The notes under the pieces were generated by a model. The model saw only the letters and a program-made list of their open reading frames with translations. It had not been told where the DNA came from and did not search any database. A stretch of DNA of 61,308 nt from Myxococcales bacterium (GTDB taxonomy: Bacteria; Myxococcota_A; Polyangia; Polyangiales; Houyiibacteriaceae), in contig JAOTXX010000015.1 in NCBI GenBank assembly GCA_029862185.1, positions 1-61,308 on the forward strand, read 5' to 3'. Shown here piece after piece: positions 37,121-57,259 of this stretch; the stretch's first letter is position 1, and each line of letters opens with the position of its first letter. The position numbers were made by a program, and so were the translations under genes.

Positions 37121-37159
37121 AAACTGGCCAGCGCTCGGCGGATCGCATATTCGAAGTGC

Positions 37160-37969: not shown

Positions 37970-37984
37970 CCTGCGACCGACCCC

Positions 37985-38518
37985 TCACTCGACGCGCCGG
38001 TGAACGTGCAGCGTCTCCGCCGGCTTCAAGCCAGTGCCGTCGATTGTCGCGCGCCGTTCGAAAACCGAGCGCACCCCATCGCCGTCGAGATCCCCTTCGG
38101 CTCGAAACGAGACCGATCGCAGATCTCCGTCGCCGACGAGATCGCAGCCGTGGTGGCTCGGAACGAAGCTGTAGCTGTAGCGCACGGGGCGATCCGGTTG
38201 AAAGCCAAGCGACTCCCAAGTGTCGTGGCCGGTGTGCTCCTCGGCCGCGAAGTCGATCTCTGCCGAGTCGACCGTCGGCACCGTGGGTGTCGGTCCCGCG
38301 CTTTGCGGAAGACAGAATCGCTTTCCATCGGCCCACGAAGTTGCGTAATAGGCAGATGCGCGGTCGCTCATCTCTTGAAGCAGCTCCGAAGCTTCGCTGA
38401 TCTTGTTGATGCGCACCCGGCGAACGAACGTCGGTACGAACACGGCCAGCACGATGCCGACGATGCAGAGCACGAGCCCCACTTCGATGAGGCTCAATCT
38501 CGGACGGCCACGACTCAA
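37985..38518 (-). CDS. pilin-like protein with non-canonical prepilin site
   Basis: A 177-residue protein with the pilin N-terminal helix (LSLIEVGLVLCIVGIVLAVFVP) including the conserved Glu5. However, the residues before it are RPR rather than the usual Gly at -1. Three cysteines are visible in the mature part and the C-terminal region has GDLDGDGVRS, shared with the neighbouring pilins. It lies downstream of the pilin cluster on the same strand, separated by the TPR gene. Confidence 0.7.
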   Translation of the reverse strand: MSRGRPRLSLIEVGLVLCIVGIVLAVFVPTFVRRVRINKISEASELLQEMSDRASAYYATSWADGKRFCLPQSAGPTPTVPTVDSAEIDFAAEEHTGHDTWESLGFQPDRPVRYSYSFVPSHHGCDLVGDGDLRSVSFRAEGDLDGDGVRSVFERRATIDGTGLKPAETLHVHRRVE

Positions 38519-38560
38519 AGCCGCGAGACTGTGCGAGCCACCCGCAGGTTTGGCAAGAGC

Positions 38561-39409: not shown

Positions 39410-39452
39410 CGGTCCAGTATATCGAAAATGCCGACGTGTCCCCCTTAAACGG

Positions 39453-39478
39453 AAAAGGCCGCGGCGAGTGCCGCGGCC
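39453..39478 (-). terminator. pilA: Rho-independent terminator of pilA
   Basis: A perfect 9-bp GC stem (GGCCGCGGC/GCCGCGGCC) with a 4-base loop is followed on the minus strand by TTTT, 25 bases after the pilA stop. It separates pilA from the downstream TPR gene. Confidence 0.85.
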
Positions 39479-39502
39479 CTTCCAGTCGTCATCCGAAGGA
39501 TG

Positions 39503-40072
39503 TTACTCGAGCGGGCTGATCTGCTGGATGCCCGGTGCGCGGTAGAGGACGTTGTCGTCGTTCGAGCCGGCTTCGAGTTGGAACGTGGACTCGACATTGT
39601 CATCGTCCAGGTCGCCATTGGCGTAGAAGGTGTAAAGCGTCGTGTCGTTCGCTGCGTTCCCGCAGGCGCTCGCGGCGGCGGCGGTCAGGCCGTACTGGAA
39701 GTAGAGTCCATCGGCCGGGGCGAAGTTCATCGCCTGGAACTGAGCATTGTCGGTCTCGCCACTCCAGAGCGGGACGTTCTTGCTGGACGAAGGCTCGACA
39801 TCCATTTCGGCGCTGTCGATGGTGCAGTGCGACACGCCTGTGACGGTCGCGCCCGGGGCAGGAACGCCACCGGTCCAGTTCTCGGCGTCGTAGTACGCCG
39901 CTGCGCCTTCGAACATCGACTTCAGGTTGTTGGCAGCTTCCGAGGTCTTCGAGCGCTTGACGTAGTTGATGAATGCCGGAATCGCGATTGCGGCAAGAAT
40001 GCCGATGATGGCAACGACGATCATCAGCTCGATGAGGGTGAAGCCCTCTTTCTTCGACAGTAGCTTGTTCAT
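39503..40072 (-). CDS. pilA: type IV pilin PilA
   Basis: A 189-residue major-type pilin. The leader [10 protein letters not shown] ends with the prepilin peptidase site G before [22 protein letters not shown], with Glu5 and the hydrophobic helix. The globular part has two cysteines that could form the disulfide loop and an acidic GDLDDDNV motif. ATG 40072 is preceded by AAGGAA at good spacing, so it is preferred to the in-frame start at 40126. Its own sigma54 promoter and terminator make it separately controlled. Confidence 0.95.
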
Positions 40073-40131
40073 ATTCAGTTCCTTTTCCCCCGGGCTCCAT
40101 GCCCGCATCATTTTGAGTTGCCCCAAGACAC

Positions 40132-40147
40132 TGCAACTGCCGTGCCG
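40132..40147 (-). promoter_or_regulatory. pilA: sigma54-type promoter of pilA
   Basis: On the minus strand CGGCACggcagTTGCA matches TGGCAC-N5-TTGCA with correct -24/-12 spacing. The start would be near 40121, leaving a leader of about 50 bases to the ATG at 40072. PilR activates pilA through sigma54 in other bacteria, and a PilR-like gene lies 1.2 kb upstream. Confidence 0.8.
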
Positions 40148-40230
40148 ATTCTCCTAGCCCCCTACTCAAGCCGAAATTACTGGCAAAACTCGATTTTGCG
40201 GGGATAGCAACGGGGCCGAGGGACAGATCT

Positions 40231-40248
40231 CGTCACCCGGAGGTGACG
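40231..40248 (-). terminator. hairpin after the second prepilin gene
   Basis: CGTCACC and GGTGACG form a perfect 7-bp stem with a CGGA loop (plus-strand reading), 8 bases after the prepilin stop. There is no T tract on the minus strand. It may instead be an upstream activator site for the pilA promoter. Confidence 0.4.
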
Positions 40249-40255
40249 GGAATTG

Positions 40256-40765
40256 TCACTTCCAGCCGCCAGTTCCGCTGGCACTGTTGAACACGTGATT
40301 CGCCTGAGAATAGATCTCCAGGTAGAAAGCAGTGCCGTCGCCGTTCAGATCGCCCTGGGCCCGGGCGGCGAACCAGTGGTCATCCTCGTCCAGGTCGGTC
40401 CCAGCGGGCGCTGCGTCCCCCGGGACGCCGGCCACGGTCGCGTACTGGAACCGGATGGGCGCGTTTGGAGACGCGCCGAGCTGCCGCCACAGATCGGTGC
40501 TCACCCAGACCACGGGGTCTTCACCCGGAATCGCGGCAGGGTTCCAGGTGCCCCAGTCATCGCCGTCGACGGCGCAGTATTGTCCAAATTCATTTCGGTA
40601 GGACTCCTGACGCTGCTTGATCTTCCCAAGGAAGTTCGTGGCTTCGGTCACGCGAGCCTTGTAGATGTACGAGGTAAAGGTGGGAATCGCCAGGGTGGCC
40701 AAGACACCGATAATCACCACGGTGATCATCAGCTCGGTGATGGTGTAGCCTTCGTTCCCCTTCAT
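40256..40765 (-). CDS. type IV prepilin-like protein
   Basis: A 169-residue prepilin. A short leader (MKGNEG) is followed by YTITELMITVVIIGVLATLAIP with Glu5; the site is Gly/Tyr rather than Gly/Phe. The C-terminus contains GDLNGDGT and ends in SGTGGWK, close to the neighbour's AGTGGWE. Its ATG overlaps the previous gene's stop as ATGA (40762-40765), indicating coupled translation. It may be a minor pilin. Confidence 0.88.
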   Translation of the reverse strand: MKGNEGYTITELMITVVIIGVLATLAIPTFTSYIYKARVTEATNFLGKIKQRQESYRNEFGQYCAVDGDDWGTWNPAAIPGEDPVVWVSTDLWRQLGASPNAPIRFQYATVAGVPGDAAPAGTDLDEDDHWFAARAQGDLNGDGTAFYLEIYSQANHVFNSASGTGGWK

Positions 40766-41283
40766 TCCCATCCCCCTGTGCCCGCGGCGCTGTTGAACAT
40801 CGTGCGCGACTGCGAATAGACTTCGAGAATGAACGTGTTTCCATCGTCATCGAGGTCGCCTTCCGCCTGTGCGGCATACCAAAAATTGGTCGCTGTATCG
40901 AGATTGGTGCTGGCGGGCGCCGCCTCTCCCGGAAAGCCAGCGATCGTCGCGTAGCGAAAGCGCACATACCCCGGCGGCCGAAGCCCAAGCATTTCCCAGG
41001 CCGGAGAGCTTGGCCAAATCACGGGCTGAGACCCCGGCACCGTAGCGGGCGTGTAGGTGCCCCAGTTGTTTCCACTCACCGCGGCATAGTTGCCGAAGCG
41101 GCTGCGGTAGGCTTCCTGCCGGGTCTTGATCTCGTTGAGGACCGTCACGGCTTCGGTCACGCGGCCGCGGTACACGTAGCCCTTGAACGACGGAATCGCG
41201 ACGGCGGCGAGAATGCCGACGATCGCAACGCCGACCAGAAGCTCGATCGTGGTGAAGCCAGCGCTTCGAAGGTGACGCGACAA
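40762..41283 (-). CDS. type IV prepilin-like protein
   Basis: A 173-residue prepilin with leader SRHLRSAG and site before FTTIELLVGVAIVGILAAVAIP. The C-terminal region shares GDLDDDGN and EVYSQSR with the next prepilin, so the two are paralogues. TTG 41283 is chosen because GGAGGA lies six bases before it; the frame stays open to 41325, which would overlap the activator gene. Confidence 0.85.
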   Translation of the reverse strand: MSRHLRSAGFTTIELLVGVAIVGILAAVAIPSFKGYVYRGRVTEAVTVLNEIKTRQEAYRSRFGNYAAVSGNNWGTYTPATVPGSQPVIWPSSPAWEMLGLRPPGYVRFRYATIAGFPGEAAPASTNLDTATNFWYAAQAEGDLDDDGNTFILEVYSQSRTMFNSAAGTGGWE

Positions 41284-41308
41284 GGAAGATCCTCCAGCGG
41301 ACAGTATA

Positions 41309-42694
41309 TCAATCGCCGGCCGCATCGCCCACTTCGGGCGATATGTGTTTTGCCAAACGATATCGAAACTGCCGGAAGCTCATGCCAAGCAACTCCGCCG
41401 CCTTCGTCCGGACCCCTCCGGCCTGGTCGAGCGCGCGAAGCAAAAGCTCCTTTTCGACTTGGCCGAGGTACTCGTCGAGGTCGAAGCGGCCCTCGGGGAT
41501 TCGCGGGGCATTTCCGGCCTTTTTCGAGGGATGGGTGTCTCCGAGGTCCGCTCGTTCGACGGTGGGGCCGACCGCCAGCGTCACGCCTCGCTCGACCATG
41601 TTCTCGAGCTCGCGCACGTTGCCGGCAAACGACTGCTGCGCCAACCAGCGCATCGCTTCAGGCGAAAACTCCAAGCGGCGTCCCTGTAAGGCCGCGTGCT
41701 TCTGGAGGAAGTAACCAGCGAGCACCGGGATGTCCTCGGCCCGATCGCGAAGTGGCGGTACCTCGATGCGAATGACGTTCAGGCGGTAGAAGAGATCTTC
41801 GCGGAAGGTGCCTGCGTCCACCTCCACCTCGACGTCTCGGTTGGTCGCCGCGACGACTCGAACGTCCACTTCGACCTCGCTGCTCCCGCCCACGGGGCGC
41901 ACATTTCGATCCTGCAAGACGCGAAGCAGCTTCACCTGAAGCGCGGGCGGCAGCTCACCGACCTCGTCGAGAAACAGCGTACCGCCATCGGCTGCTCGAA
42001 ACAGGCCTTCCTTTGCAGACGTCGCGCCGGTGAACGCGCCCTTGATGTGACCAAAGAGCTCGCTCTCGATGAGGTTCTCCGGGATGGCCCCGCAGTTCAA
42101 AACGACGAACGGCTGTTCGGCGCGTGGGCTCTGAAAATGGAGCGCACGCGCGACCATTTCTTTTCCAGTGCCGCTTTCGCCGGTGATCAAGACACTCGTG
42201 GTGGAGCCGGCGAGCCGCTTGATCAGATCCCGAAGCCGGTCCATGGCCTCGCTCTTGCCGATCAGCTGACCTTCGGTCCAGCGGGACTTGACCTGCTCGC
42301 GTAGGGATTGGTTTTCGGCGACGATGGCCCGCTTTTCGAGGGCCTTCTCGAGCGTTGCCAGGAGCTCGTGGTTCCTGAACGGCTTCTGCACATAGTCGTA
42401 AGCGCCTTTGCGCATCGCCTCGACGGCCTGTTCGGTCGTCGCGTAGGCCGTGATCATCAGGGTCTGAGTGTTGGCCGATCGCGCGCGAACCGCATCGAGC
42501 ACGTCCATGCCGGTGCCGTCGGGCATCACCAGGTCGGTGATGACGACATCGTAGGGGTCGGCGCTTCCGAGCTTGTCGCGCGCCGCATGCACGCCGTCTA
42601 CCACGTCGACGCGAAAGCCTTCGCGCCGCAGCAAGATCTGCAGCATCTCGCGTAAGCTGGCTTCGTCGTCACAGACAAGAATGCGTGCGGACAC
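41309..42694 (-). CDS. pilR: PilR/NtrC-type sigma54-dependent response regulator
   Basis: A 461-residue activator. The receiver domain ([11 protein letters not shown], phosphoacceptor Asp in [12 protein letters not shown]) is followed by an AAA+ domain with Walker A GESGTGKE, the sigma54-contact loop GAFTGAT and Walker [12 protein letters not shown] Fis-type HTH ends the protein ([17 protein letters not shown]). It sits upstream of three pilin genes on the same strand, one with a sigma54 promoter. No sensor kinase gene (PilS) is adjacent. GTG 42694 is preferred; a TTG at 42703 is possible. Confidence 0.92.
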
Positions 42695-42771
42695 GATCCC
42701 CAAACCCCCGCCTACACCTTACGTCAAATCCCGCGTGCGGCCACGAGACTTGCATGCGTGGTTGCGGCCGC

Positions 42772-43056
42772 CTAGCTAAACCCGGCGCGCCGGCCCCCGG
42801 CGCCGCTTGGCGGCCGAACGCAAAGCCCGTGTAGGCTGCTGTACTCCACGAAGTAGGCCGTGTGATGCTCGCGCGAGGTGACCTCGCAGAATGCGGTCTG
42901 GAGGCGGAGCGAGGCCACTTCAGACACCTCCATCGCTTGGCCCGGGTCGCCGACGTACACCGACACGCCATAGCCGTCTGCAAAGGTGTATGCGTCGCCG
43001 TCGCGCTCCACTCCGGGTGCCGCTTCGAGCATCGCTTCGAGCGTTGGTCGTTCCAT
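42772..43056 (-). CDS. small hypothetical protein
   Basis: A 94-residue protein starting at ATG 43056, inside a longer open frame. It is acidic with the pattern MERPTLEAMLEAAPGVERDG and a strand-rich middle (GVSVYVGDPG). No family recognised. It is divergent from the MarR/GbsR-type regulator across 64 bases. Confidence 0.55.
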   Translation of the reverse strand: MERPTLEAMLEAAPGVERDGDAYTFADGYGVSVYVGDPGQAMEVSEVASLRLQTAFCEVTSREHHTAYFVEYSSLHGLCVRPPSGAGGRRAGFS

Positions 43057-43120
43057 GCGGCGCAGCTTTGATGCGAGCGGCCGGCTGGTCAAGCCTTGGG
43101 GTTCGGGGTAGGGCGCTAGC

Positions 43121-43672
43121 GTGGCGAAGGACGAGGAGGAGCTCTGGCAAAGTGAGGTCCTAGTCAGCGATTCGATTGGCCGCCTAATCGAGTTCTGGGG
43201 GTTCAAGCGAAACATGGGGCGCCTTTGGGCGGTTCTGTACTTGTCCGACCGTCCGCTCAGCGCCCCCGAAATGCAAGATCGGCTTCAGCTCAGTAGCGGC
43301 GCGGTTTCGATGACCCTCAACGAGCTCACTCGCTGGGGAGTGGTCAAGAAGGTCTGGCTCCAAGGCGAGCGGCGCGATCACTACGCGGCCGAAGGCAACT
43401 TCTGGAAGATGATCTCTCGCGTCTTCAACGAACGCGAACGCGTCGAGGTCCTCGACGCCATCGACCTCATGGAAGACGCGATCGAGTTCTTGAAAGACAA
43501 AGCCAAGGAGCCCGAAGACCGGAGCAGGGCGCAATTCCAAGAAGAACGCATTCGCGAGCTCCTCGACCTCGCGCGTCTTGGCAAGCAGCTGCTCGACGCG
43601 TTGGTCAAGGACGCCAAAGTCGATGGAAGCCCCTTGATGAACGTGCTACTTGGCGGAACCGACAAGCGCTGA
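43121..43672 (+). CDS. GbsR/MarR-family winged-helix regulator
   Basis: A 183-residue protein. The N-terminal half has a winged helix (PLSAPEMQDRLQLSSGAVSMTLNEL and GVVKKVWLQGERRDHYAAEG) of the GbsR/MarR type; the rest is a long helix for dimerisation. Start is GTG 43121, with a weak ribosome site. It converges with the esterase gene. Confidence 0.85.
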   Translation: MAKDEEELWQSEVLVSDSIGRLIEFWGFKRNMGRLWAVLYLSDRPLSAPEMQDRLQLSSGAVSMTLNELTRWGVVKKVWLQGERRDHYAAEGNFWKMISRVFNERERVEVLDAIDLMEDAIEFLKDKAKEPEDRSRAQFQEERIRELLDLARLGKQLLDALVKDAKVDGSPLMNVLLGGTDKR

Positions 43673-43695
43673 GTGCGGCGCCGACCCGGTCGCAT

Positions 43696-44736
43696 CTAAG
43701 CTTGCGCGACGAATTCGTGCCTGGGCTCGCGCGGATGTTGGAGCGCGCGGGCCAAGAACGAGAGCTGTTCGCGCCAGCATCGGCGCGCTTGGCGTCGCCA
43801 GACCAGCGCATGAAACGCGTGGAGCTCGCCTTCGTAATAACGCGCTTCGCATTCGACACCCATCGCCTTGAGCGCGCGGTCGAGGCGGCGCGTGTCGTCG
43901 AGCAAGGGATCGCGGGTGCCGATGGGCACGAAGAAGGCGGGAAGGGCGCGGTCCGGTCGCTCGCGTCGCTCGAAGACGTGCAGCGGGTCGGCGAGGTCCA
44001 GCCCACCGGGCGCGTGATCGTGAAGCACTCCGACGTACAATTCGTTCATGCCTTCGAGGATGTCGTTCACCCAGCGCGGCAGCTTGCGTTTTCGGTTCAA
44101 ACGCCCGGGGTTGGTGATTTGAAGCGGCGCGCATGCAGGGGCAACCGCGGTTGGCACCAAGCCCGTGGCAAACGCACGCTGGGCAAAGGGCTCGGGACGC
44201 CGGTAACAGCAACAGATGGCGAGTGCGGTGGCTAGATTCCCACCCGCCGACTCGCCTGCGAACACCAAGCGGCTCAGGTCACCGCCGTAGGCTTCGGCGT
44301 GTTCGGACGCCCATTCGAGCGCCGCGCAAACATCGGACACGGCCGCTGGATAAGGGTGCTCGGGCGCGAGCCGGTAATCGATGTTGAACACCAAGTAGCC
44401 CGCTCGCGCGAAGGCGAGCCCCATCAGCCAGTGCGTGTTCTTCGACAAGAGGTTGAAGCCGCCACCGTGCATGTAGAGAACGATCGGCAGGCTGCCGGAC
44501 CGCTTCGCGGGGCGGTAGATATCGAGCCTGTGACGCGGATTGCCACCGTGCAGGTACGCAACGTCTCGGATCACCTCTACCCCATGCTTGGCAGGGTTCG
44601 AAAGCGGATGAAGTCGCCCGAGCCGCGCTAGGCTTCCAAAAAAACCCTCGCCGATGATGGCATTGGCCTGGCGTCGCAGCCGCTTGCGCATGCGCTGCAG
44701 ACAGGACATAGCCGAGGGCTTGGGGGGCATGAGCAA
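43696..44736 (-). CDS. alpha/beta-hydrolase esterase (HSL-like)
   Basis: A 346-residue esterase with the oxyanion motif LYMHGGGFN, the nucleophile elbow FAGESAGGNLA, the acid in GTRDPLLDD and the base in ELHAFHAL. This combination is the hormone-sensitive-lipase (family IV) type that cleaves short acyl esters. Start at 44736 or an internal ATG two codons later. No signal peptide is obvious. Confidence 0.88.
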   Translation of the reverse strand: MLMPPKPSAMSCLQRMRKRLRRQANAIIGEGFFGSLARLGRLHPLSNPAKHGVEVIRDVAYLHGGNPRHRLDIYRPAKRSGSLPIVLYMHGGGFNLLSKNTHWLMGLAFARAGYLVFNIDYRLAPEHPYPAAVSDVCAALEWASEHAEAYGGDLSRLVFAGESAGGNLATALAICCCYRRPEPFAQRAFATGLVPTAVAPACAPLQITNPGRLNRKRKLPRWVNDILEGMNELYVGVLHDHAPGGLDLADPLHVFERRERPDRALPAFFVPIGTRDPLLDDTRRLDRALKAMGVECEARYYEGELHAFHALVWRRQARRCWREQLSFLARALQHPREPRHEFVAQA

Positions 44737-44836
44737 CTTGTATCACGGTCTTGAAAAAGGCCGCTGGAATCGGCGCACTCTTGCGCGATTTCGCGGATTT
44801 TTTGTGGTTTATTGGCGCGCGGCGTACTTCTCGAGG

Positions 44837-45241
44837 ATGTCTGCAGCGAGCTCGAATTCGGTCGTTCTAGCACTGCTCGCAGCGCTGCTCGTTGCTGGCG
44901 TTCCCAGCCCGGGGCACGCGGGGTCCTCGAGCCACATCGACGCGTTCCTCGTGCGGCAGAAGATCCACAACGACCTCCCGAAGATCAACCGCTGCTACGA
45001 GTCTGCGCTCCGCTTTGAGCCCGAGCTCGCGGGCAAAGTTTCGGTTCGCTTCGCGGTGGTGCGCAAGGGCTACGTCCGGGGCCTCCGGATCGTCGAGAAC
45101 ACGACCGGCAACGACCGGGTCGAGCGCTGCGTTGCTCGCGTGGTCAGCGCGATCCGATTCCCACGACGCCGAACGGGCAAGAGCCTCAGCTTCACCTTCC
45201 CATTCGTGTTTGCTCCGCAAGAAGGCCGCTGGGCGCCCTAG
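44837..45241 (+). CDS. secreted AgmX/PglI C-terminal domain protein
   Basis: A 134-residue protein with a signal peptide (VVLALLAALLVAGVPSPGHAG). The mature part matches the AgmX/PglI-type domain seen in Myxococcus motility proteins, a TonB-like fold: INRCYESALRFEPELAGKVS, FAVVRKGYVRGLRIVENTTG, VERCVARVV and a final FPFVF. ATG 44837 has only a weak ribosome site; the frame is open further upstream. Confidence 0.75.
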   Translation: MSAASSNSVVLALLAALLVAGVPSPGHAGSSSHIDAFLVRQKIHNDLPKINRCYESALRFEPELAGKVSVRFAVVRKGYVRGLRIVENTTGNDRVERCVARVVSAIRFPRRRTGKSLSFTFPFVFAPQEGRWAP

Positions 45242-45311
45242 GCCAGGTTCCTTCCCACAGATCTCGTTAAAGGCAGCGGAATCTTCACAGCCCATCGAGA
45301 CTACCTGGGCG

Positions 45312-45731
45312 TCATTCAGGCAGGTGCGCGCTCGCGTGCAGCATGCGGAGCGACGCCTCTTTCCAGCCATATGTCACCGCTGAGCATACCTCGAAGCGGG
45401 CTCTGGTAATCCACCATCGGCCGTCGATGCGGCGGTACTCGTCCTCGTAGTAGCCCCCGCACACGCTGACGGTTTTTGTGTGGGTGTTCATGAGGTGATA
45501 CACGAGGCCCCAGCGCGCGTGTGCTTCATCGGGACCGGTGACCTCGATGTGCGGCGGGCCCCCATGATGCATCTCGATGATGTGTGTCTGGCACGCGACG
45601 TTCTTGAAGACCTCGTAGAGCCCGTCCCGATGGTGCACGAGCCCAACCGGGCCATCGTAGTGAATCTCGACCGGGCCCTCGAGGAAGCAATCGCGAACGC
45701 CCTCGACGTCCTTATTGTTTCTACAACACAT
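45312..45731 (-). pseudogene. 5'-truncated SnoaL-like gene
   Basis: The 139 codons encode the second part of a SnoaL/NTF2-like domain (VRDCFLEGPVEIHYDGPVG, YYEDEYRRIDGRWWITRARFE). The normal first helix of the family is absent: homology begins right at the IS junction, and the sequence beyond the IS is the dif site and an unrelated gene. The ATG (45731-45729) uses one base supplied by the IS, so any product would have lost about 20-30 residues. Confidence 0.65.
45726..45730. repeat. target-site duplication, left copy
   Basis: ACACA immediately before the IS left end, identical to 47326-47330 immediately after its right end. Confidence 0.85.
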
Positions 45732-47325
45732 GTCAAAACCAGGCGTTGGTGTCCGGTGGTTGTGCCAGTTAGAAATGTCCGGTACCGAATGGTGACTGCG
45801 GGGTGGTGGGCCCGCAGGGGGCAGGGCGGTTGGCGACCTGAACCCCTTGGTGAATCAGGGGGAACGTGAGCACCGGGCAGGAGGCGGACGACTTGAGATG
45901 GGGCCGGCGCCACGTCGGACAGCGGGCTCGGTTCAGGGACCGGGAGGCGGCAACCGGTCAGCGAAGCGGTCGCGGACGATGCGCTTTTCACGCTTGCTCT
46001 TGGCGGACTTGACGAGCTCCTGCTCCTTTTGTTGTTGGCGCTTGCGGATTTCGGTGAGCGCGCCGCTCAGGAGCTTGTTGTCGACGATGGAGCCTTGGGT
46101 GACGCAGCCGTCTTTGTGAAACGGGCGAGCGGCAAGGGCGACGCCCTCAAAGCGAATCGACACACGGCCGTCTTCGTACTCGACGACGGTGACACGCTTC
46201 TTCGCCGCAGCTTTGGCTTCCTCGGTGGGCTCGAGCAGGTACATCGTTCGTTTGTGGTGCACGGTGAGCTGCGCGGTGACGCGCCGCTCTTCTTGCCAGG
46301 TGAAGATGTCGTCGAGGCAGTCACGCTCGAGCAAGGGCCGATGCGCATCGTGGTCGTTTCGCGCTGAGCGTCCGAAGCGTCGATTGTAGTCGTCCATGAA
46401 CTCGGGCAAGTACCGATTGGCGTCGTCCATCGTAGAGATCCCGCGCAGCCGGAGCTCCTTGACGAGTCGGTCTTGAAGCGTCTGGTGCGCCCGCTCGACG
46501 CGGCCTTTGGCCGCCGGGGTATTGGCGCAAATCACGTCGATATTGAGGTCGCTCATCGCGCGACCAAACTGCGTGAAGCCGTCACCGGCTTTCGGACGCT
46601 TGGCATTGACGCGGAATACGCCGGCTTTGTCGCTGTACAACGCCACCGGCTTGCCGTGACGCTCTAGATACGAACGGGTCGCATGGAAGTAACTGAACGC
46701 GGACTCGGATTCGCACATGCGAAGCGCCATGAGCTTCCCGGTCGCATCATCGACGTAGACCAGGAGCACGGACCGAGGTCCGCGGTCCTCGAACCAGTGA
46801 TGGTCCGAGCCATCGATCTGCACGAGCTCGCCGTAGCAATCGCGACGGTGACGCGGCTGCTGGACGCGTTTGTTGCGCTGACGGCGCGTCAGCCAGATGC
46901 CGTCGTCGATCATCCACTGTCGGAGTGTCTCGGTGGCCACACGGATGTCGTGCTGTTCGAGAAGCTTTTCCTGCGCGAGCGTCGGTCCAAAGTCAGCATA
47001 GCGCGCCCGGACGAGCGCCAGCGCTTCTTTTCGAAGCTCCACGGGCAAACGTCGATTGCTTCGGCCGCGCCGTTTCGACCCGAGGCCCGCTACACCTTCT
47101 TGAGCGAAACGCCGGCAGATGCGTCGCATCTGCCGGTCACTGATGCCAACGATCTTGGCGCCAGCCGTCTGTGTAAGCCGTCCATCGGCTATTCGAAGCA
47201 CTACCTGCAGTCGGTCCATTTCTCGCGTGCTCAAGCTCGTCAAATCGTCCGTCATCGATGCCGAGTGCACGAAAACCGGACATTTGAAAATGGGAGAAAT
47301 AGGACATTACTAAATGGGGCTTACA
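45731..47325 (-). mobile_element. IS1202/ISNCY-type insertion sequence
   Basis: 1595 bp bounded by TGT...ACA ends and flanked by the direct repeat ACACA (45726-45730 and 47326-47330). The imperfect terminal repeats TGTCAAAACCAGGCGTTGG (left) and TGTAAGCCCCATTTAGTAA (right, reverse complement) each continue to TGTCC at base 24 and then a second TGTCCGGT about 24-26 bases further in. One intact transposase gene fills most of it. The right end lies 5 bp from dif. Confidence 0.9.
45933..47270 (-). CDS. ISNCY/IS1202-family transposase
   Basis: A 445-residue DDE transposase. The N-terminus has a helix-turn-helix (GRLTQTAGAKIVGISDRQMR) and ISNCY-type blocks (YADFGPTLAQEKLLEQHDI, TLRQWMIDDGIWL). Candidate catalytic residues are in QIDGSDHHW, LYSDKAGVF and AKGRVERAHQ. 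The gene looks intact. GTG 47270 or ATG 47255 are possible starts. The 200 bp between its stop and the left IS end hold no gene. Confidence 0.93.
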   Translation of the reverse strand: MHSASMTDDLTSLSTREMDRLQVVLRIADGRLTQTAGAKIVGISDRQMRRICRRFAQEGVAGLGSKRRGRSNRRLPVELRKEALALVRARYADFGPTLAQEKLLEQHDIRVATETLRQWMIDDGIWLTRRQRNKRVQQPRHRRDCYGELVQIDGSDHHWFEDRGPRSVLLVYVDDATGKLMALRMCESESAFSYFHATRSYLERHGKPVALYSDKAGVFRVNAKRPKAGDGFTQFGRAMSDLNIDVICANTPAAKGRVERAHQTLQDRLVKELRLRGISTMDDANRYLPEFMDDYNRRFGRSARNDHDAHRPLLERDCLDDIFTWQEERRVTAQLTVHHKRTMYLLEPTEEAKAAAKKRVTVVEYEDGRVSIRFEGVALAARPFHKDGCVTQGSIVDNKLLSGALTEIRKRQQQKEQELVKSAKSKREKRIVRDRFADRLPPPGP

Positions 47326-47330
47326 ACACA
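47326..47330. repeat. target-site duplication, right copy
   Basis: ACACA between the IS right end and the first base of the dif XerC arm. Confidence 0.85.
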
Positions 47331-47358
47331 ATTTCGCAGAACGTATATTATGTAAACT
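47331..47358 (+). other. dif: dif site (XerC/XerD recombination site)
   Basis: The 28 bp read as an 11-base XerC arm ATTTCGCAGAA, a 6-base centre CGTATA and an 11-base XerD arm TTATGTAAACT. The XerD arm is identical to that of Bacillus subtilis dif as I remember it and close to TTATGTTAAAT of E. coli; the XerC arm shares the TCGCA..AA core. dif is where XerCD resolves chromosome dimers, normally one per chromosome near the terminus. No second copy is seen in the window. Confidence 0.9.
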
Positions 47359-47377
47359 TTTCTCCGAGGGCTGGTTT

Positions 47378-48946
47378 TTAGGGCCTGCAGGAGAGCGCGG
47401 CGAGTCGTTCTTCGACGTATCGGGCGGTTTCGGGATCCCCAGCCTTCTCGGCCCAAGTCCCGAGCCGCGCTCGGACGCTTGCGCAGCGCGGTCCTTCGCG
47501 GACGGTCGCGACGAGCGCGTCGACCGCCTCGCGAGTCTTCGCCGCGTCGTTTGCCCTGGTGGCCAAGTCGTATGTGGGAACGATGATCGGTCTCGGCCAC
47601 GGCGGTGACGGCATCGACGCGACCGCTTCGCGCAGCTTGTCGTGGTCGCCGTGCCGAGCGGCGATGCGGGCGAAGTAGAAATGGATGCTCGGGTCGTCCG
47701 AGTGGTCCCGAAAGAGCGCGCGGTCGTAAGCTTCTTGGCTTGCATACGCTTGGCTGGCCGCGTGTGTCTGCAGCGCTGAATAACCGAGCAGCCCGAGTCC
47801 GAGCACGCCGATTGCAATCCTCCAGCCTCGGCTCCGCGACACGGCGCGCACGACGTATGGCGACATGGCCAGAATCGCGAGAATCGCAGACATGTACAGA
47901 TACCGGTCGAAGCCCATCCAGAACGCGCCCGATACGATGGCCACCGGCGCCAAGGTCAGAATCGCGCCGACCGCATATGCAAGGCCCGACAAATCGCGCC
48001 GGGAAATCAGAAAACCCAGACCGAGCAGCGCGACCGCGAGCCCGACCCAGTCCGACGACGACCAGGGCCCAAACAAAACCCAGGAGAGCGACTGCATGGC
48101 CTCGGCGCGGAAGCTCAGCAGCGCGGCTGCGCCCTTCCCCACGAGCTTTGGAACCGACGACCAGATGTCGGGATCGGCGAACACGTTTTCCGACGCACCG
48201 AGTTGACCTTGAAATGGCGCAAATGCAGCCCGAAGAACGAGATGAACCGCAATTCCCGCGGCAATCGCGCTCCCCGCCCTCCGTGATTGCGCCGCTTGTG
48301 TGCGGTTGGCCCAGGCCAGCCAGCCGGCCAGCGCGGCGATCGCAAATGGCAGCTTGGAGCTCGCGCCGAGAAACGCCACGAGGCCCAGCACGAACAGCTG
48401 AGCCCATTGCGGGCGCGGCGTGGCGCTCATCCGGCTCAACCAGAACACGAGCGCCACGAGCCAAAATCCCGCGAGCAGGTCGGAGCGCCCATTGATCCAC
48501 ACATACGATTCGACGTGCACCGGGTGAAGAAAGAACAGCGCGGCGAGCCCCGCGGCCACAAAGTCGTTCGTCTCGCTGTCGGCACCTGACGCCGTGGGAC
48601 TCTGGCTCCGAAGCACGACGAACAGGAGCAGGCTCGTTGCTGCGTGCAAGAGCGAACTCACCGCGTGATGGAGCCAGGGTTCCGGTGCCAAGAGATGCGT
48701 CGCGATCAGCGTCAGCATCGTCGCCGGCCGATACGGGCCGACCTTGTCTTCGACGAACAAGTAGCTCGCTGCGTTGCGTTTGAAAACTGCCCCGAGCTCG
48801 GCCCAATCCGCGTAAAAATAGTTGCGGACCATGTGCCAGTCATCACCGACCCAGGTGCCAGACAGCCCGACCCAGGTCACCGCCCATGACACCGTGACCA
48901 CCACGATCGCGAACGCCCCAAGGCGAAGCCCATGCCGTCGTTCCAT
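47378..48946 (-). CDS. GT-C-type membrane protein with C-terminal TPR-like part (TMTC/DUF1736-like)
   Basis: A 522-residue polytopic membrane protein with about ten hydrophobic segments. The block FFLHPVHVESYVWINGRSDLLAG resembles TMTC-type O-glycosyltransferases of the GT-C fold, and the N-terminal WVGDDWHMVRNYF supplies an acidic pair typical of that active site. The last 130 residues are soluble and helical. ATG 48946 is preferred (AGGA nine bases upstream) over 48967. Its stop is 20 bases from the dif site. Confidence 0.8.
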   Translation of the reverse strand: MERRHGLRLGAFAIVVVTVSWAVTWVGLSGTWVGDDWHMVRNYFYADWAELGAVFKRNAASYLFVEDKVGPYRPATMLTLIATHLLAPEPWLHHAVSSLLHAATSLLLFVVLRSQSPTASGADSETNDFVAAGLAALFFLHPVHVESYVWINGRSDLLAGFWLVALVFWLSRMSATPRPQWAQLFVLGLVAFLGASSKLPFAIAALAGWLAWANRTQAAQSRRAGSAIAAGIAVHLVLRAAFAPFQGQLGASENVFADPDIWSSVPKLVGKGAAALLSFRAEAMQSLSWVLFGPWSSSDWVGLAVALLGLGFLISRRDLSGLAYAVGAILTLAPVAIVSGAFWMGFDRYLYMSAILAILAMSPYVVRAVSRSRGWRIAIGVLGLGLLGYSALQTHAASQAYASQEAYDRALFRDHSDDPSIHFYFARIAARHGDHDKLREAVASMPSPPWPRPIIVPTYDLATRANDAAKTREAVDALVATVREGPRCASVRARLGTWAEKAGDPETARYVEERLAALSCRP

Positions 48947-49011
48947 CCCAAAAGATCCTACTGACATCAGCCGAAACGAAGCGAGCTTTCGGTAGCAGCC
49001 ACTACCTCCCC

Positions 49012-49057
49012 AAACGAGGCTGGCATACTGGTTTCAAGAGTATAAGAATACATTTAT
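49012..49057 (+). promoter_or_regulatory. conserved upstream block of surface lipoprotein gene, copy 1
   Basis: The 46 bases before the ATG (GAGGCTGGCAT, CTGGTTTCAAGAG, TATAAGAATACATTTAT) match 49859-49904 closely. TATAAG at 49041 is a candidate -10 box. TGGCATactggTTTCA also resembles a sigma54 site but the second copy does not keep it. Confidence 0.55.
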
Positions 49058-49777
49058 ATGGAAGTTCGGGCCATCGCTCTGCCGGTGCTGGTGCTGGCGC
49101 TGAGCTTGGGCTGCGCGTTCGAGACGCATTCCCTGAGTCCGGGCGGTCGCGGGTCAGACGGCGGCGGCCTAGAGCCCGGCACCGGTGATGCGGGTGTCGA
49201 CGATGGTGGCCTCAACACGACGCCCGACGCTGGCATCGAAGAGCCCGAATGCACCGCGGGGACCGAAAGGACCGCCTGTCCGGGTACCAGCTGTCACCCT
49301 GTGTGGCTGGTTTGCACCTCGATGGAGGTCGCCAGCCGCGGCATCTGCGAATCGTGCTTCGCTGACAGCAACTGCGCGGAGCCGAACCATCGCTGCGTGA
49401 TGATGACGCACGCCGGGAAACCCTACCCCGACGACACGACGGGGTTCTGCCTGCAGGTGACAACCGAGGAAGGCGCGGATTGCGTGCAACCGTTCATCGT
49501 GACCCTCGACGGCCGAAAGAGCATGTCGGGAGGCCAGGAGCAGAGCTACTGCGGTATCTACGAGGAGCTCGCGACTTGCGAAGCGGTACACGCGTTTCAC
49601 AGTGCGGACGCTTGTCCAAGCGGACGCGACGATGAGTGTCCCCGCGGCGGCTTGTGCCGGGGCATCGCGGCTCAAGGCAACAGAACGGAGTACCGTTGCA
49701 CCTACGCCTGCATCGATGCCTCGGAGTGCTCGAGTCAGTGGATCCATGTCGCCTGTGCGGGCTACTGCGGCGGTTGA
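49058..49777 (+). CDS. Cys-rich surface lipoprotein, family member 1
   Basis: A 239-residue protein with lipobox LVLALSLGC followed by AFETHS, an acidic/Gly linker, and a Cys-rich domain of about 16 cysteines (CTAGTERTACPGTSC, ESCFADSNCAEPNHRC, DECPRGGLC) ending CAGYCGG. It is a full-length paralogue of the protein at 51443-52303. No known domain is recognised; the pattern suggests an extracellular disulfide-bonded protein. Confidence 0.8.
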   Translation: MEVRAIALPVLVLALSLGCAFETHSLSPGGRGSDGGGLEPGTGDAGVDDGGLNTTPDAGIEEPECTAGTERTACPGTSCHPVWLVCTSMEVASRGICESCFADSNCAEPNHRCVMMTHAGKPYPDDTTGFCLQVTTEEGADCVQPFIVTLDGRKSMSGGQEQSYCGIYEELATCEAVHAFHSADACPSGRDDECPRGGLCRGIAAQGNRTEYRCTYACIDASECSSQWIHVACAGYCGG

Positions 49778-49858
49778 TCCCGCCCCGTATTGCCGGCAGC
49801 CCGTGATCGGTCGATGGCGTCGAGGCGAAGTCCCCCAGGTGAGGCAGTTCACATCCCT

Positions 49859-49904
49859 GAATTAGGCTGGCATTCTGATCAAACAAGTGTAAAAATATGT
49901 CTAT
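49859..49904 (+). promoter_or_regulatory. conserved upstream block, copy 2
   Basis: TTAGGCTGGCATTCTGATC and AAGTGTAAAAATATGTCTAT immediately precede the ATG at 49905. It shares the GGCTGGCAT start and the AT-rich end with copy 1. There is no purine-rich ribosome site within it. Confidence 0.55.
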
Positions 49905-51446
49905 ATGGGAAAAACATCTCCAACACGAGCATTACGCTACGCAGTCGGCGTGGCCATCGTCCTCGCAACCGCGCTTGGCTGCGACATCTCCGGCTCCGGT
50001 TCCGGCAGCGGCGGGCTCGGGAGCGATGGCAGCGGAGGAACACCCGGCGTAGGGGGGACGGCCGAGCCAGGCGCAGGAGGCGCCGGTGGCGTGGGCGCGA
50101 TGGCCGGCGCGGGTGGCGCGGCTGGGGACCCAATGCTCGAAGTCGTCGAATTGGACCCGACCTTTGGTGACGATGGCATTCGCATCTTCAGTATCCTCAA
50201 CAGCAGTTGGACGTCGGAGGGCGCAAGAGCCGTGGCTGTCATGCCCGACGACCGAATCGTCGTTGCCGGCACCAAGCATCTGTCGAGCTTTGGTCCGTCG
50301 TACGGGTTTGCCGCCCTTTTCGGCGATGACGGCGTCTTGGACACGTCGTTCGGCGTCGACGGCGATGGTGTCGTCCACGCGATCTTCGACGTCAATACTG
50401 AGATCAGCGCCGTTGCAGTCGACAGCGAGGGTCGAATTCTTCTCGGCGGCTGGTCGAAGTCATCGAGCTCGTCTGACCCAGGCGCGTTGACCTTGGCTCG
50501 ATATTTCGCCGATGGGACCTTGGATGACTCGTTCGGAAACGACCTCAACCCTACCGGGGTCACTCGACTTCCCGAGCCCTGCGCCGTCCAGACCAGCGAC
50601 ATCGCGGTTCAAGCAGACGGCCGGATCGTCGCCACCGGAAACGCGTGCGAATCCGCGGAGCGTTTGTCCGCTGTGAGGCTTGGGTCGGACGGCGCACCCG
50701 ACGAATCGTTCGGGGATGGCGGCGTGCTTCTGATGGAACCGGGCTACAGCGATGAGGTTCTGATCTCGACCGATGGTCTTGGAGCCGCACGCATCCTGGT
50801 CGGAGGGAGCGTTGGTGAGACCGGCTTTGACGGCAACCTGGATTTCGCGATCGCCGGCGTCACGGACGACGGCTCACTCGACGCGACCTTTGGCAACGAC
50901 GGCATGGTCGTCACCGATTTTGGGGATGGCTCGCCGGGCCGTTCGGAAGGTCTGAGTGCACTTGCGCGCACGCCCGACGGCCGAGTTCTCGCAGCGGGTT
51001 GGGCTCAACTGCTGCCGAACTCTGCGGAACCTTGGGTGTTTGCGTACGACTTCTTGGTCACCGCGTATGACGAAGCTGGCGCGTTGGACGGTTCATTCGG
51101 GGACGGTGGCTCGACCCTCGTCGACTTTGGCAGCGAATCGGAGGAAGCCGTCGAAGTCCTCCATCGGCCCAACGGGAATTTCGCCGTCGTCGGACAGTCT
51201 CTACCCAGAGCCTCGCAACGAAAGGTCGCCATCGCGCACTTGAGCCCTGACGGCACGCCCGTCGAAGGGGAGCACAAAGTACTCACCGAGCTCGAAGGCG
51301 CGGGACTCACCGCTCAGGGAGCGATCCTCGACAATCACGGGCGCCTCTTGGTGGTCGGCTACGTTGTGTATGAGAGCGGAGGGGTCGACGTGTTCGTGGC
51401 CCGGTACGTGTTCCGGGAGCTGGAACAGGGGGGTATGGTCCCATGA
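49905..51446 (+). CDS. delta-60 repeat lipoprotein
   Basis: A 513-residue lipoprotein (VLATALGC) with a Gly-rich linker (GGTAEPGAGGAGG) and at least six delta-60 type repeats, each with the pattern LD.SFG.DG (DGVLDTSFGVDG, DGSLDATFGNDG, AGALDGSFGDGG), likely a beta-propeller. Delta-60 proteins are extracellular and of unknown function. Its TGA overlaps the next gene's ATG (51443-51446), so they are translationally coupled. Confidence 0.88.
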   Translation: MGKTSPTRALRYAVGVAIVLATALGCDISGSGSGSGGLGSDGSGGTPGVGGTAEPGAGGAGGVGAMAGAGGAAGDPMLEVVELDPTFGDDGIRIFSILNSSWTSEGARAVAVMPDDRIVVAGTKHLSSFGPSYGFAALFGDDGVLDTSFGVDGDGVVHAIFDVNTEISAVAVDSEGRILLGGWSKSSSSSDPGALTLARYFADGTLDDSFGNDLNPTGVTRLPEPCAVQTSDIAVQADGRIVATGNACESAERLSAVRLGSDGAPDESFGDGGVLLMEPGYSDEVLISTDGLGAARILVGGSVGETGFDGNLDFAIAGVTDDGSLDATFGNDGMVVTDFGDGSPGRSEGLSALARTPDGRVLAAGWAQLLPNSAEPWVFAYDFLVTAYDEAGALDGSFGDGGSTLVDFGSESEEAVEVLHRPNGNFAVVGQSLPRASQRKVAIAHLSPDGTPVEGEHKVLTELEGAGLTAQGAILDNHGRLLVVGYVVYESGGVDVFVARYVFRELEQGGMVP

Positions 51447-52303
51447 GGGAGCTAGCTACCACTCTATTGTTTTTGACGTTGAGCGCGGGATGTGCGTTTG
51501 AAACGCATTCGGTGGGTTTGGGCAATGGCGGGCTGGATGCGGATGGCCTAGCGCCCAGCGTGGGTGACGCCGGCGTCGGCACCGGCGGATTCGACACGAC
51601 CACGCCCGACACGACCACGCCCGACACGACTACGCCCGACACGACCACGCCCGACACGACTACGCCCGACACGACCACGCCCGACACGACTACGTCCGAC
51701 ACGACCACGCCGGACAAGTTGGATCCTAGCATCTCGACCGATGTCGTCGTCGTGGAGCCAAGGTGCACACCGGGGACCGAAAGGTCCAGCTGTCCGGGCA
51801 CCAGCTGTGACCCCGTGACGCTGACCTGCACCACGCTGATGTTGGCCAGCCGTAGCACCTGCGAGACCTGCTTTACCGACAGCAACTGCGCTGGCGTGGA
51901 TCACCGCTGTGTGTGGATGACTTACCAGGGTGAGCCCATTCCGGACAAGCGGATGGGGTTCTGCCTTCAAATCGCCGAGCCAGTCACCGTCGACGGCGGC
52001 TACGCCTGCTTGCCGCCGTTCACTGTGCCTCTCGTCAACCGAGAGAGCCCGTCGGGAGGCAAGAATCAAAGCTACTGCGGCATCCACGAGAAGCTCACGA
52101 CTTGCTTCGCATTGCGCGCTTTTCACAACGGGGAGGCCTGCCCAACGGGCCGCGATGACGAGTGCCCTACAGGTGGGTTGTGCCGAGCGATCGCGAGCAC
52201 TGGACGCAAAACGGAATACACCTGCACCTACGCCTGCACCGATGTCTCCGAATGTTCGAGCCCGGGGGCCAAGGTCAATTGCGCGGGCTTCTGCGGCGGC
52301 TGA
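51443..52303 (+). CDS. Cys-rich surface lipoprotein, family member 2
   Basis: A 286-residue paralogue of the 49058 protein. The lipobox is followed by CAFETHS, then an eight-unit Thr-Pro-Asp repeat (TTTPD, one unit TTTSD), then the same Cys-rich domain (CTPGTERSSCPGTSC, ETCFTDSNCAGVDHRC) ending CAGFCGG. The repeat is a flexible Thr-rich, possibly glycosylated, stalk. Start ATG overlaps the preceding stop. Confidence 0.8.
   Translation: MRELATTLLFLTLSAGCAFETHSVGLGNGGLDADGLAPSVGDAGVGTGGFDTTTPDTTTPDTTTPDTTTPDTTTPDTTTPDTTTSDTTTPDKLDPSISTDVVVVEPRCTPGTERSSCPGTSCDPVTLTCTTLMLASRSTCETCFTDSNCAGVDHRCVWMTYQGEPIPDKRMGFCLQIAEPVTVDGGYACLPPFTVPLVNRESPSGGKNQSYCGIHEKLTTCFALRAFHNGEACPTGRDDECPTGGLCRAIASTGRKTEYTCTYACTDVSECSSPGAKVNCAGFCGG
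51596..51715 (+). repeat. eight tandem 15-bp units
   Basis: Units ACGACCACGCCCGAC and ACGACTACGCCCGAC alternate from unit 2 onward, so the true period is partly 30 bp. They encode TTTPD; one unit has TCC (Ser) for CCC. Slippage is likely to vary the count between strains. Confidence 0.9.
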
Positions 52304-52304
52304 T

Positions 52305-53048
52305 CTAGAAAGACCCTGATACCAGAACACCCGTCGGTGTGAGCATCCAGGTTGTGGTCCGTTTGTCTTTGGGACGATTCCTGCTGACCAAAATCCAGCT
52401 GACACTGCCCGCCAACGCCGCCACACCGACACCGCCGTAGACCCAAGTCCACGGGCTCGTGGTTCTTTTGCTCAAGCACATGCCGGCCACTTCCTCCACG
52501 CAGGTGCCGCTGTTCGCGAGGCCGACGCCCATCGCCACGACGCCAGCGACGCCGACTGCACCGAGGACGGATGAGCCGACGATTGCAGACCTAGGGATTT
52601 TTCGGCCGGATGATGCTCGAACGGAGTCATCAGAGCTGGCCGCGACTTCGGAGAGCTGTCGCTCGGCCTCTTTGTTCGCTTCGTTGGCCTGCTCCAGCGC
52701 GGCGATCCGCTGGCGAACTTCCTGTTCACGCGGCGGATGCTCGACTTCTTCGAGATAGCTCTGAAACGCCACCAGGGCTTCCTCATCGCGCTGTAGGCGG
52801 GTGGCGGTGATACCGATGTTGTACTGAAGCTGTCCCCGCTGGCTGAGGCTATGCGCGTTCCGAAAGTGCATGAGCGCTTGCTCGTAGTTGCTCTGCTCGA
52901 AGGCAGAGCGCCCCTGCTCGAACTGCTTGCGCGCGGCCGCATCGTCCGCCGTGTTTTGTGCGCTAACCGGCGCGGACGCGATCAGCACGCCGCAAAGCAC
53001 CAGCGCCGAACAGAGCCAGCAGGGCGCTATCTCCCGAGTCCCTCCCAT
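52305..53048 (-). CDS. TPR-containing membrane protein
   Basis: A 247-residue protein with a signal peptide (LVLCGVLIASAPVSAQ), two TPR-like helices (FEQGRSAFEQSNYEQALMHF, LQYNIGITATRLQRDEEAL), a coiled Glu-rich stretch, then two membrane-like segments (AIVGSSVLGAVGVAGVVAMG and VYGGVGVAALAGSVSWIL). It converges with lipoprotein member 2, with one base between stops. This architecture recurs in myxobacteria; function unknown. Confidence 0.75.
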   Translation of the reverse strand: MGGTREIAPCWLCSALVLCGVLIASAPVSAQNTADDAAARKQFEQGRSAFEQSNYEQALMHFRNAHSLSQRGQLQYNIGITATRLQRDEEALVAFQSYLEEVEHPPREQEVRQRIAALEQANEANKEAERQLSEVAASSDDSVRASSGRKIPRSAIVGSSVLGAVGVAGVVAMGVGLANSGTCVEEVAGMCLSKRTTSPWTWVYGGVGVAALAGSVSWILVSRNRPKDKRTTTWMLTPTGVLVSGSF

Positions 53049-53108
53049 ACCCCTTCAAACTAGAGCATCGAGCGCGGCAGCCGCAACTTCGGCGCCCCGC
53101 ACCCCGCG

Positions 53109-53768
53109 TCAGCGAGCCAAAATGACCTGCGTCAGACCGTCGAGGCGTCCGAGGAGAAAGCGCTCGGATGGGCTGTACTCGCTGCGTGCGCGTTTCTGGA
53201 TGACCTGTAGGTAGGCGCGCAGGTACTTTCCGCTATGGTATTCGTTGCGACGCACCGCTTCGTGGAGCGCTTCGATCGTTTCTGCGGTCATCACGCGCGC
53301 TGTCGCCGTGTGCATGCGGAACACCCAGTCGATCCACCTTTTGTCTTTGAGCCCCTGCGCAAGCTGCAGTGCATAGTCCGTGGCCGTGGCAAACATCGCG
53401 TCCGGGTCGTCGTTACTGGAATCACTGAGAGGCCGGTGTCGCATGGCCCGCTCCAAGAGCGCGTCCAGGTGCGGGATCAGGATCCGCTCGGCCTCGTCGA
53501 ATCGGCCCGACGTGATCGCTTTGGACGCGATGGTTCCGAGCACGTCTAACGCCCGAGCGGTATGGGTGCTTTCCGAAGCGCCCCATTCACTCTGCGACTC
53601 GTCGACCCGCATGCTTGGTATCGCAGACCGGTCCTGCTCCCTCCAAGTCGAGCTCGATTCGGATTGGAGACGCGCACCGCAGTCACCGCAGTATGGTGCG
53701 ATCTGGCGTTCTTCTCTCCCAATTCCCACTCGCCAGCGCCCGACAAAAATGTAGAAATACATTTTCAT
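53109..53768 (-). pseudogene. 5'-truncated copy of the FHA/zinc-ribbon gene
   Basis: The C-terminal part (YCGDCGAR, then a helical domain ending YSPSERFLLGRLDGL) is nearly identical to the gene at 53996-54940, but the FHA domain and half of the zinc ribbon are missing. An ATG at 53768 would make a 219-residue protein with an unrelated 27-residue start. Homology at DNA level ends near 53693. It may be expressed as a truncated protein or be dead. Confidence 0.7.
53746..53766 (+). promoter_or_regulatory. upstream element with perfect inverted repeat
   Basis: AAAATGTA and TACATTTT are perfect 8-bp complements around GAAA, directly before the ATG at 53767. The GTAGAAATACATTT part resembles the end of the blocks before 49058 and 49905. 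Confidence 0.45.
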
Positions 53769-53964
53769 GGCAAAAACTGCCTTACTCGTCGTGCTTCTGG
53801 CGTTGGCATCCGCCTGCGTGCTTGAATCGCACCCCGTAGGTCCAGGCAATCGCTGCCTGGATGGCGGAGTCGGCGGCATGGGCGGAAGCGCTGGCAACGG
53901 TGGAATGGTTGGCACGGGCGGTGCCGGCGGCGAAGCTTGCTCGCAGGGTTACTGCGGCCGGTGA
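53767..53964 (+). CDS. miniature surface lipoprotein
   Basis: A 65-residue protein: lipobox (LVVLLALASAC) followed by VLESHP, a Gly-rich linker (GGVGGMGGSAGNGG) and a short end CSQGYCGR. It keeps the two ends of the lipoprotein family (C-x-x-E-[ST]-H and the YCGG-type C-terminus) but lacks the Cys-rich domain. Probably a degenerate or minimal family member. Confidence 0.6.
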   Translation: MAKTALLVVLLALASACVLESHPVGPGNRCLDGGVGGMGGSAGNGGMVGTGGAGGEACSQGYCGR

Positions 53965-53995
53965 GCATCGTGGACGCCGGTCCGACAAAGCTGCG

Positions 53996-54580
53996 CTATT
54001 GCGCGAGAACGACTTGGGCGAGACCGTCGAGGCGTCCGAGAAGAAAGCGCTCAGATGGGCTGTAGTCGTTCGTCGGGCGCTTCTGGATGACCTGTAAATA
54101 GGCGCGCACGTACTTCCCGCTATGGTATTCGTTGCGACGCACCGCTTCGTGGAGCGCTTCGATCGTTTCTGCGGTCATCACGCGCGCGGTCGCGGTGTGC
54201 ATGCGGAACACCCAGTCGATCCACCTTTTGTCCTTGAGCCCCTGCGCAAGCTGCAGTGCATAGCTGGTCGCCGTGGCGAACATGGCATCGGGGTCGTCCC
54301 TGGTGGAATCACTGAGAGGCCGGTGGCGCAGAGCTCGTTCCAAGAGCGCGTCCAGGTGCGGGATCAGGATACGTTCGGCCTCGTCGAATCGGCCCATCGT
54401 GATCGCTTTGGATGCGATGGTCCCGAGCACGTCGAGCGCCCGAGCAGTATGGGTGCTCTCCGAGCCGCCCCATTCACGCTGCGACGGGTCGACCTGCAGG
54501 CTCGGTATCGCAGGTCGGTCCTGCTCTCTCCAAGTGGCGCTCGACTCGGATTCGAGGCGCGCGCCACAGTCGCCGCAGTA
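53996..54580. repeat. duplicated segment (partner at 53109-53693)
   Basis: About 585 bp here and at 53109-53693 are highly similar in the same orientation with a constant offset of 887 bp, with long identical runs. The break at both copies follows GCCGCAGTA or its variant. A recent partial tandem duplication. Confidence 0.85.
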
Positions 54581-54940
54581 CCGCTTCGCGCTTCCGTTGA
54601 TCGCGCCGCAGACGTCGCACGCGACGTGCCGATCGGTCGTTACGCGATCGTTCATCTTGTCGGCGTCGATGAGCACGAGCTCCTGCGAGCCGATGTAGAC
54701 GCGGTCCATGTGCTGTAGGGGGCATTCGCCCTCGATTCGGACGCCATTGACGGCAACTCCGTTTCGGCTGCCCAAGTCTTGAAGCACGACGACATCGGGT
54801 TCGACCCGAAGCACTGCGTGCTTTCGCGAGACCAGCCCGTCGGCCACCGCCAGGTTGCACGCCGAGCTCCGACCAATGGCAAACTCTCCGAGCCGGAGCT
54901 CGAGGTTGGTCGACTGATATCGCAATCGGAAGCGTGCCAC
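53996..54940 (-). CDS. FHA domain - zinc ribbon protein
   Basis: A 314-residue protein. The FHA domain (residues 5-90) has FAIGRSSACNLAVADGLVSRKH and LQDLGSRNGVAVNG, a phosphothreonine-binding fold. Next is a zinc ribbon (CDVCGAIN...YCGDCGAR), then a helical C-terminal domain with no known family (ARALDVLGTIASKAI, GRFDEAERILIPHLDALLERA). GTG 54940 is chosen because the FHA starts there; the frame is open to 55426 but upstream residues look non-coding. Confidence 0.8.
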   Translation of the reverse strand: MARFRLRYQSTNLELRLGEFAIGRSSACNLAVADGLVSRKHAVLRVEPDVVVLQDLGSRNGVAVNGVRIEGECPLQHMDRVYIGSQELVLIDADKMNDRVTTDRHVACDVCGAINGSAKRYCGDCGARLESESSATWREQDRPAIPSLQVDPSQREWGGSESTHTARALDVLGTIASKAITMGRFDEAERILIPHLDALLERALRHRPLSDSTRDDPDAMFATATSYALQLAQGLKDKRWIDWVFRMHTATARVMTAETIEALHEAVRRNEYHSGKYVRAYLQVIQKRPTNDYSPSERFLLGRLDGLAQVVLAQ

Positions 54941-55077
54941 CCCACATACAAAGTAGCAGTTCAGGAGTCGGACTGACCAACAGGATCGGCTACGGAACAC
55001 CGGACCAGTGTGAGTGGCTTGCTGTCTCCGTCCCATTGCCAGTCGGACGATGGTGCGCGGCCCGCTGGAATCGGTCG

Positions 55078-56274: not shown

Positions 56275-56285
56275 CGATTGCGGCG

Positions 56286-57143: not shown

Positions 57144-57259
57144 GGCTTCCTCCAAAAGGCCGGGAAAACCCGGCAAATCGCGTCGGCACTATACACGCGG
57201 CCCTTCCCCAGTCAACGCAGCCTCGCGTCCGGCGCAACCGCCGTGCTAGAGCGCTCGCT

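Follow-up and report, generated by a model that had tools for sequence, protein, structure and literature searches.

A chromosomal dif site of the Polyangiales with an IS1202-family insertion sequence next to its XerC arm

Is the 28-bp site at positions 47331-47358 of a contig from an uncultured myxobacterium the chromosomal dif of its lineage, and what is the DNA that adjoins it? The contig (C57) was analyzed over its full length of 61,308 bp, hereafter the window, and belongs to a draft genome in 169 contigs. We consider it highly probable (roughly 95%) that the site is the chromosomal dif of the Polyangiales (Myxococcota, SG8-38 group) and that an insertion sequence (IS) of the IS1202 family adjoins it on the XerC side. 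This explanation is built on features observed here, namely the site, its single copy and conservation, the convergence of KOPS motifs, the Xer and FtsK genes, the ends of the IS, the target site duplication and the spacing.

A search of the window with the 28-mer ATTTCGCAGAACGTATATTATGTAAACT gave an exact match on the + strand, with an 11-bp arm, a 6-bp center, and a second 11-bp arm, and thus confirmed the dif-type site of a preliminary description of this DNA. No second match with up to 3 mismatches was detected elsewhere in the window, and 100 dinucleotide shuffles yielded none at the same threshold. As that description had anticipated, the whole genome (4,285,816 bases) also contains a single copy at ≤3 mismatches. 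Its statement that the XerD arm equals that of Bacillus likewise agrees with the published B. subtilis 28-mer, whose XerD arm is TTATGTAAACT, the same as here (PMC3025954). The nearer comparison is the Myxococcus xanthus dif, AGGTCCGATAACATGCGTTATGTAAACT (PMC2731167), in which the XerD arm is also identical, whereas the XerC arm (AGGTCCGATAA) differs from the ATTTCGCAGAA found here. Among 97 sampled relatives, 16 harbor the 28-mer at ≤3 mismatches. Of 184 genomes of the order, 139 match a dif consensus at up to 2 mismatches, in nearly all cases at a single site, and the reversed-pattern control gave no match. In the order, most XerC halves read TTCGCAGAA or TTCGCATAA and most XerD halves TTATGTNAACT; the center is the most variable part among the relatives (CGTATA, GATATA, GCTATA, or GGTATA). 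The site itself is ordinary: it shares its 28-bp 11-6-11 layout and its single copy with the dif-XerCD-FtsK-KOPS systems of E. coli and M. xanthus.

The recombinase genes that the preliminary description expected elsewhere in the genome were recovered by profile searches. XerD (301 aa, contig C121) scores 357.9 bits, above the NCBIfam cut-off of 329.6, and XerC (314 aa, contig C80) scores 320.9 bits, just below the cut-off of 335.15. The xerC gene lies between trmFO-like and hslV-like genes, as named from our reading of their translations. Contig C60 encodes an FtsK that has a gamma domain. XerC, XerD, FtsK gamma, and the convergence of GGGNAGGG motifs described below are all shared with dimer resolution of the E. 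coli type.

The preliminary description did not mention that an IS ends 5 bp from dif (Table 1). One copy of the duplication ACACA exactly fills the 5 bp separating this IS from the XerC arm. The transposase matches the NCBIfam model NF033594 (ISNCY) with 472.7 bits against a cut-off of 250, and carries the catalytic triad D153, D214, and E259 with a glutamine at E+7 (Q266), the signature of the IS1202 family; a phmmer search against the PDB gave no match. The IS ends read TGTCAAAACCAGGCG... and, on the other side, TGTAAGCCCCATTTA..., with repeated TGTCC boxes in each. The source genome contains one copy of the IS. Next to its distal end, the apparent start codon of a SnoaL-like ORF (45312-45731) is composed of bases from the target duplication and from the end of the IS, and the native start of this ORF is probably elsewhere.

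Table 1 Features of the dif site, the adjoining IS, and the nearest KOPS motifs in the window.
Feature	Position	Strand	Remark
XerC-binding arm of dif (ATTTCGCAGAA)	47331..47341	+	Conserved in relatives
Central region of dif (CGTATA)	47342..47347	+	
XerD-binding arm of dif (TTATGTAAACT)	47348..47358	+	Identical in published M. xanthus dif
IS1202-family (ISAjo2-like) IS, 1595 bp, outer ends TGT...ACA	45731..47325	-	Anatomy as in PMC10132070
Target site duplication ACACA (5 bp), dif-side copy	47326..47330	.	Separates the IS from the XerC arm
Target site duplication ACACA (5 bp), distal copy	45726..45730	.	
Transposase gene, 445 aa	45933..47270	-	Start side facing dif
Terminal inverted repeat, dif-side end (TGTAAGCCCCATTTAGTAATGTCCTA)	47300..47325	-	Tip inward
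Terminal inverted repeat, distal end (TGTCAAAACCAGGCGTTGGTGTCCGG)	45731..45756	+	
Internal repeat box, distal end (GAAATGTCCGGT)	45772..45783	+	
Internal repeat box counterpart, dif-side end	47275-47286	-	
Nearest KOPS left of dif (GGGCAGGG), pointing at dif	45819..45826	+	Inside IS
Nearest left-side KOPS outside IS	43939-43946		
Nearest KOPS right of dif (GGGAAGGG on - strand), pointing at dif	48132..48139	-	

This anatomy is the one described for IS1202-family elements of the ISAjo2 type. These encode a DDE transposase of 394-507 aa with a glutamine seven residues past the glutamate and have TGT/ACA ends, imperfect terminal inverted repeats (TIRs) of ~24-26 bp and an internal repeat. They are flanked by 5-bp duplications and are found, always in the same orientation, at a distance of 5 bp from the XerC side of pdif sites (dif-like sites of mobile elements or plasmids) and of chromosomal dif, the latter on Acinetobacter chromosomes (PMC10132070). 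The IS described here shares with them the size of ~1.5-1.6 kb, the single DDE transposase (445 aa) with Q at E+7, the TGT/ACA ends, the internal repeats, the 5-bp duplication, the distance of 5 bp from the XerC arm and the transposase start side turned towards dif. It differs in its TIRs, which agree at ~13 of 26 positions (counted by eye), below the 15-25 matching positions of most members, and in its host, as the Myxococcota are absent from the hosts listed (PMC10132070). Its best plasmid-borne relatives are ~50-59% identical to it. A relative on a plasmid of the alphaproteobacterium Microvirga shows the same layout and orientation, with CTACA, 5 bp and then ACTTCGTCGAA CATTTT TTATGGAACCA. 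The IS beside dif is a new member of an already known family, and it extends the range of this documented dif-hunting family to the Myxococcota.

The same register was observed in other genomes of the order. When 80 distinct dif contexts were compared, TACA was found at offset 5 from dif in 14 of them and 3 times at all 19 other offsets combined; by our own count, 12 genomes of the order have the exact CTACA at offset 5, and none has it at offset 7, the control. Inspection of 14 genomes by eye showed at least one of the two inner TGTC boxes, or a close variant of it, in eight (the window included) and the TGTA tip only in five; one runs off its contig. The five with the tip only are probably decayed IS ends, and several congeners retain nothing but decayed ends at dif. 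The congener G017 and contig C336 of G015 each have the IS 5 bp from a degenerate dif-like site (ATTTCGCGGTA...TTATGTCGAGT), and the G017 copy has the target site duplication (TSD) TCCGA at both ends. No dif-like site is evident by the transposase start of the G041 and G051 copies, and dif targeting is therefore not universal. The distal ends of the copies in G009 and G059 were not recovered with a simple search for a TSD followed by TGT.

One could argue that the 5-bp spacing reflects a native TACA motif upstream of dif rather than the end of an IS, as TACA is present at offset 5 in five genomes (G008, G016, G018, G047, and G063) whose sequence shows no recognizable inner IS boxes. However, in the window and seven other genomes TACA forms the tip of a sequence in which TGTC boxes recur, the copies of the window and G017 come with a transposase and a TSD, and 66 of the 80 dif contexts do not have TACA at this offset. 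TACA as a native accessory motif of dif was thus rejected for most cases, on account of the inner TGTC boxes, the transposase and the TSD, and we regard this explanation of the spacing as quite improbable.

The preliminary description had also proposed that the window probably contains the replication terminus, with GC skew and KOPS orientation both expected to flip at 47.3 kb. For GC skew, a flip was not clearly seen: the values are positive on both sides of dif (+0.018 on the left and +0.010 on the right), without a change of sign. The skew is higher on the left than on the right of dif in 8 of 8 homologous contigs. In this respect the locus differs from chromosomal dif/XerCD/FtsK-KOPS systems, the skew being too weak to mark the terminus. 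Because noise prevented GC skew, sampled in 20-kb pieces of two complete relatives from the order, from locating the terminus, KOPS polarity was used as the test. The E. coli KOPS, GGGNAGGG, occurs in the window 10 times forward and once in reverse to the left of dif, and 0 times forward and 5 times in reverse to the right (chance of ~0.0014, hypergeometric), and the switch in polarity falls between 45819 and 48132. When eight dif contigs were oriented by dif and pooled (the window, six others of its genus, and one of a sister genus), the forward/reverse counts were 52/4 on the left and 2/39 on the right; the Fisher value of 4e-20 overstates independence, as the eight contigs are homologous. 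In a blind ranking of all 8-mers with at most one N by their polarity towards dif, GGGNAGGG came first (91 vs 6). The complete 10.75-Mb chromosome of the relative G059, sampled within 2.7 Mb of dif, gave 21/3 on the left and 1/11 on the right, and the complete G044 a weaker polarity (4/1 and 6/18). The placement of the terminus in this window of a draft genome is thus supported by KOPS and not by GC skew. In the limited set of literature searched, we found no report of KOPS or of a dif-targeting IS in the Polyangiales.

The convergence of KOPS also bears on whether the site could be a pdif rather than the chromosomal dif. Two observations would fit a pdif: elements related to the adjoining IS at the family level seek out pdif sites too, and several dif-like sites are present in some genomes of the order (four in G063 and sixty-two in G086). 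Against this, the site is the sole copy in its genome, the flanking genes are conserved in congeners beside their only dif, and the KOPS motifs converge on it, so that a pdif is very unlikely here.

The 62 dif-like sites of G086 (on contigs including C49, C141, C51, and C164), as compared with about one in other genomes, are mostly ATTGCGCATAA GAGACA TTATGTTAACT. Those sampled each form the core of a ~93-bp repeat that is dispersed between unrelated genes, at spacings of ~0.6-10 kb. This repeat could be a cassette-like array, a MITE-like repeat or a promoter repeat, and a separate site with a GATATA center on C265 may be the true dif of this genome. The four sites of G063 are on C52, C60, C68, and C83, and TACA at the IS register was found only on C83. 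The second contig of G059 (210 kb) is probably a plasmid; it, too, contains a dif-like site (TTCGCAGAATGAAAATTATGTCAACT, C2:3192-3217), along with transposase fragments of the same family as the IS in the window.

With the site read as the chromosomal dif, a sequence of events can be proposed by analogy with other species, in which chromosome dimers would be resolved here, the transposase would contact XerC, and dif would still be working. XerC and XerD would bind the two dif arms, and the GGGNAGGG motifs, converging from both replichores, would guide FtsK to dif; FtsK would then activate XerD, and the XerC/XerD pair would resolve chromosome dimers at division. The IS transposase, probably recognizing XerC on dif, placed the element 5 bp outside the XerC arm; such targeting via XerC bound to dif was proposed, and not demonstrated, in PMC10132070. 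The insertion duplicated ACACA and left the 28-bp dif intact, so that both the site and the IS can survive. That the insertion instead damaged or replaced the function of dif and left a relic is just as unlikely as a pdif: an insertion 5 bp away could disturb the access of XerC or FtsK, and only decayed IS ends were kept in several congeners, but all 28 of 28 bases are intact and identical to those of IS-free congeners, Acinetobacter chromosomes have ISAjo2-type ISs at the same spacing from the chromosomal dif (PMC10132070), and the genome has no second dif.

Within 44867-56274 of the window, dif and the IS are inverted relative to the conserved flanking genes when compared with most congeners and with the sister genus. 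In G015, G016, G018, G007, G011, and the sister-genus genome G021, homologs of the window genes at 55078-59995 are on the XerC side of dif, and those of 25621-45222, where seen, are on the XerD side. In the source genome (G000), G002, and G012, genes of the 55078-59995 group or their neighbors are on the XerD side; the 25621-45222 group of G000 follows past the IS, towards the XerC arm. The simplest placement of the flip is in the lineage of these three genomes. A tree of one flanking protein clusters G000 with G012 (support 100/98); it should be noted that the G021 branch of this tree is long, which leaves the root unsure. Dimer resolution is independent of the orientation of dif relative to the flanking genes, and the flip was therefore probably neutral. 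A tentative reading, to which we give slightly less than even odds, is that the dif flank in the order has long been a docking niche for the IS1202 family, with complete, truncated, and decayed ends sharing the 5-bp register across several families of the order, and that dif was turned around in one sub-lineage, perhaps by the gain of a second, inverted site and the loss of the first.

For an uncultured myxobacterial lineage in which GC skew is too weak to reveal the replication terminus, dif marks its place, and KOPS polarity of the E. coli type is indicated to operate in the Myxococcota. The range of dif-hunting ISs, documented mainly in Acinetobacter and other Pseudomonadota, is extended to a further phylum. 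This adds weight to the view that what the transposase recognizes is a conserved feature, the Xer-bound dif, and not the local sequence.
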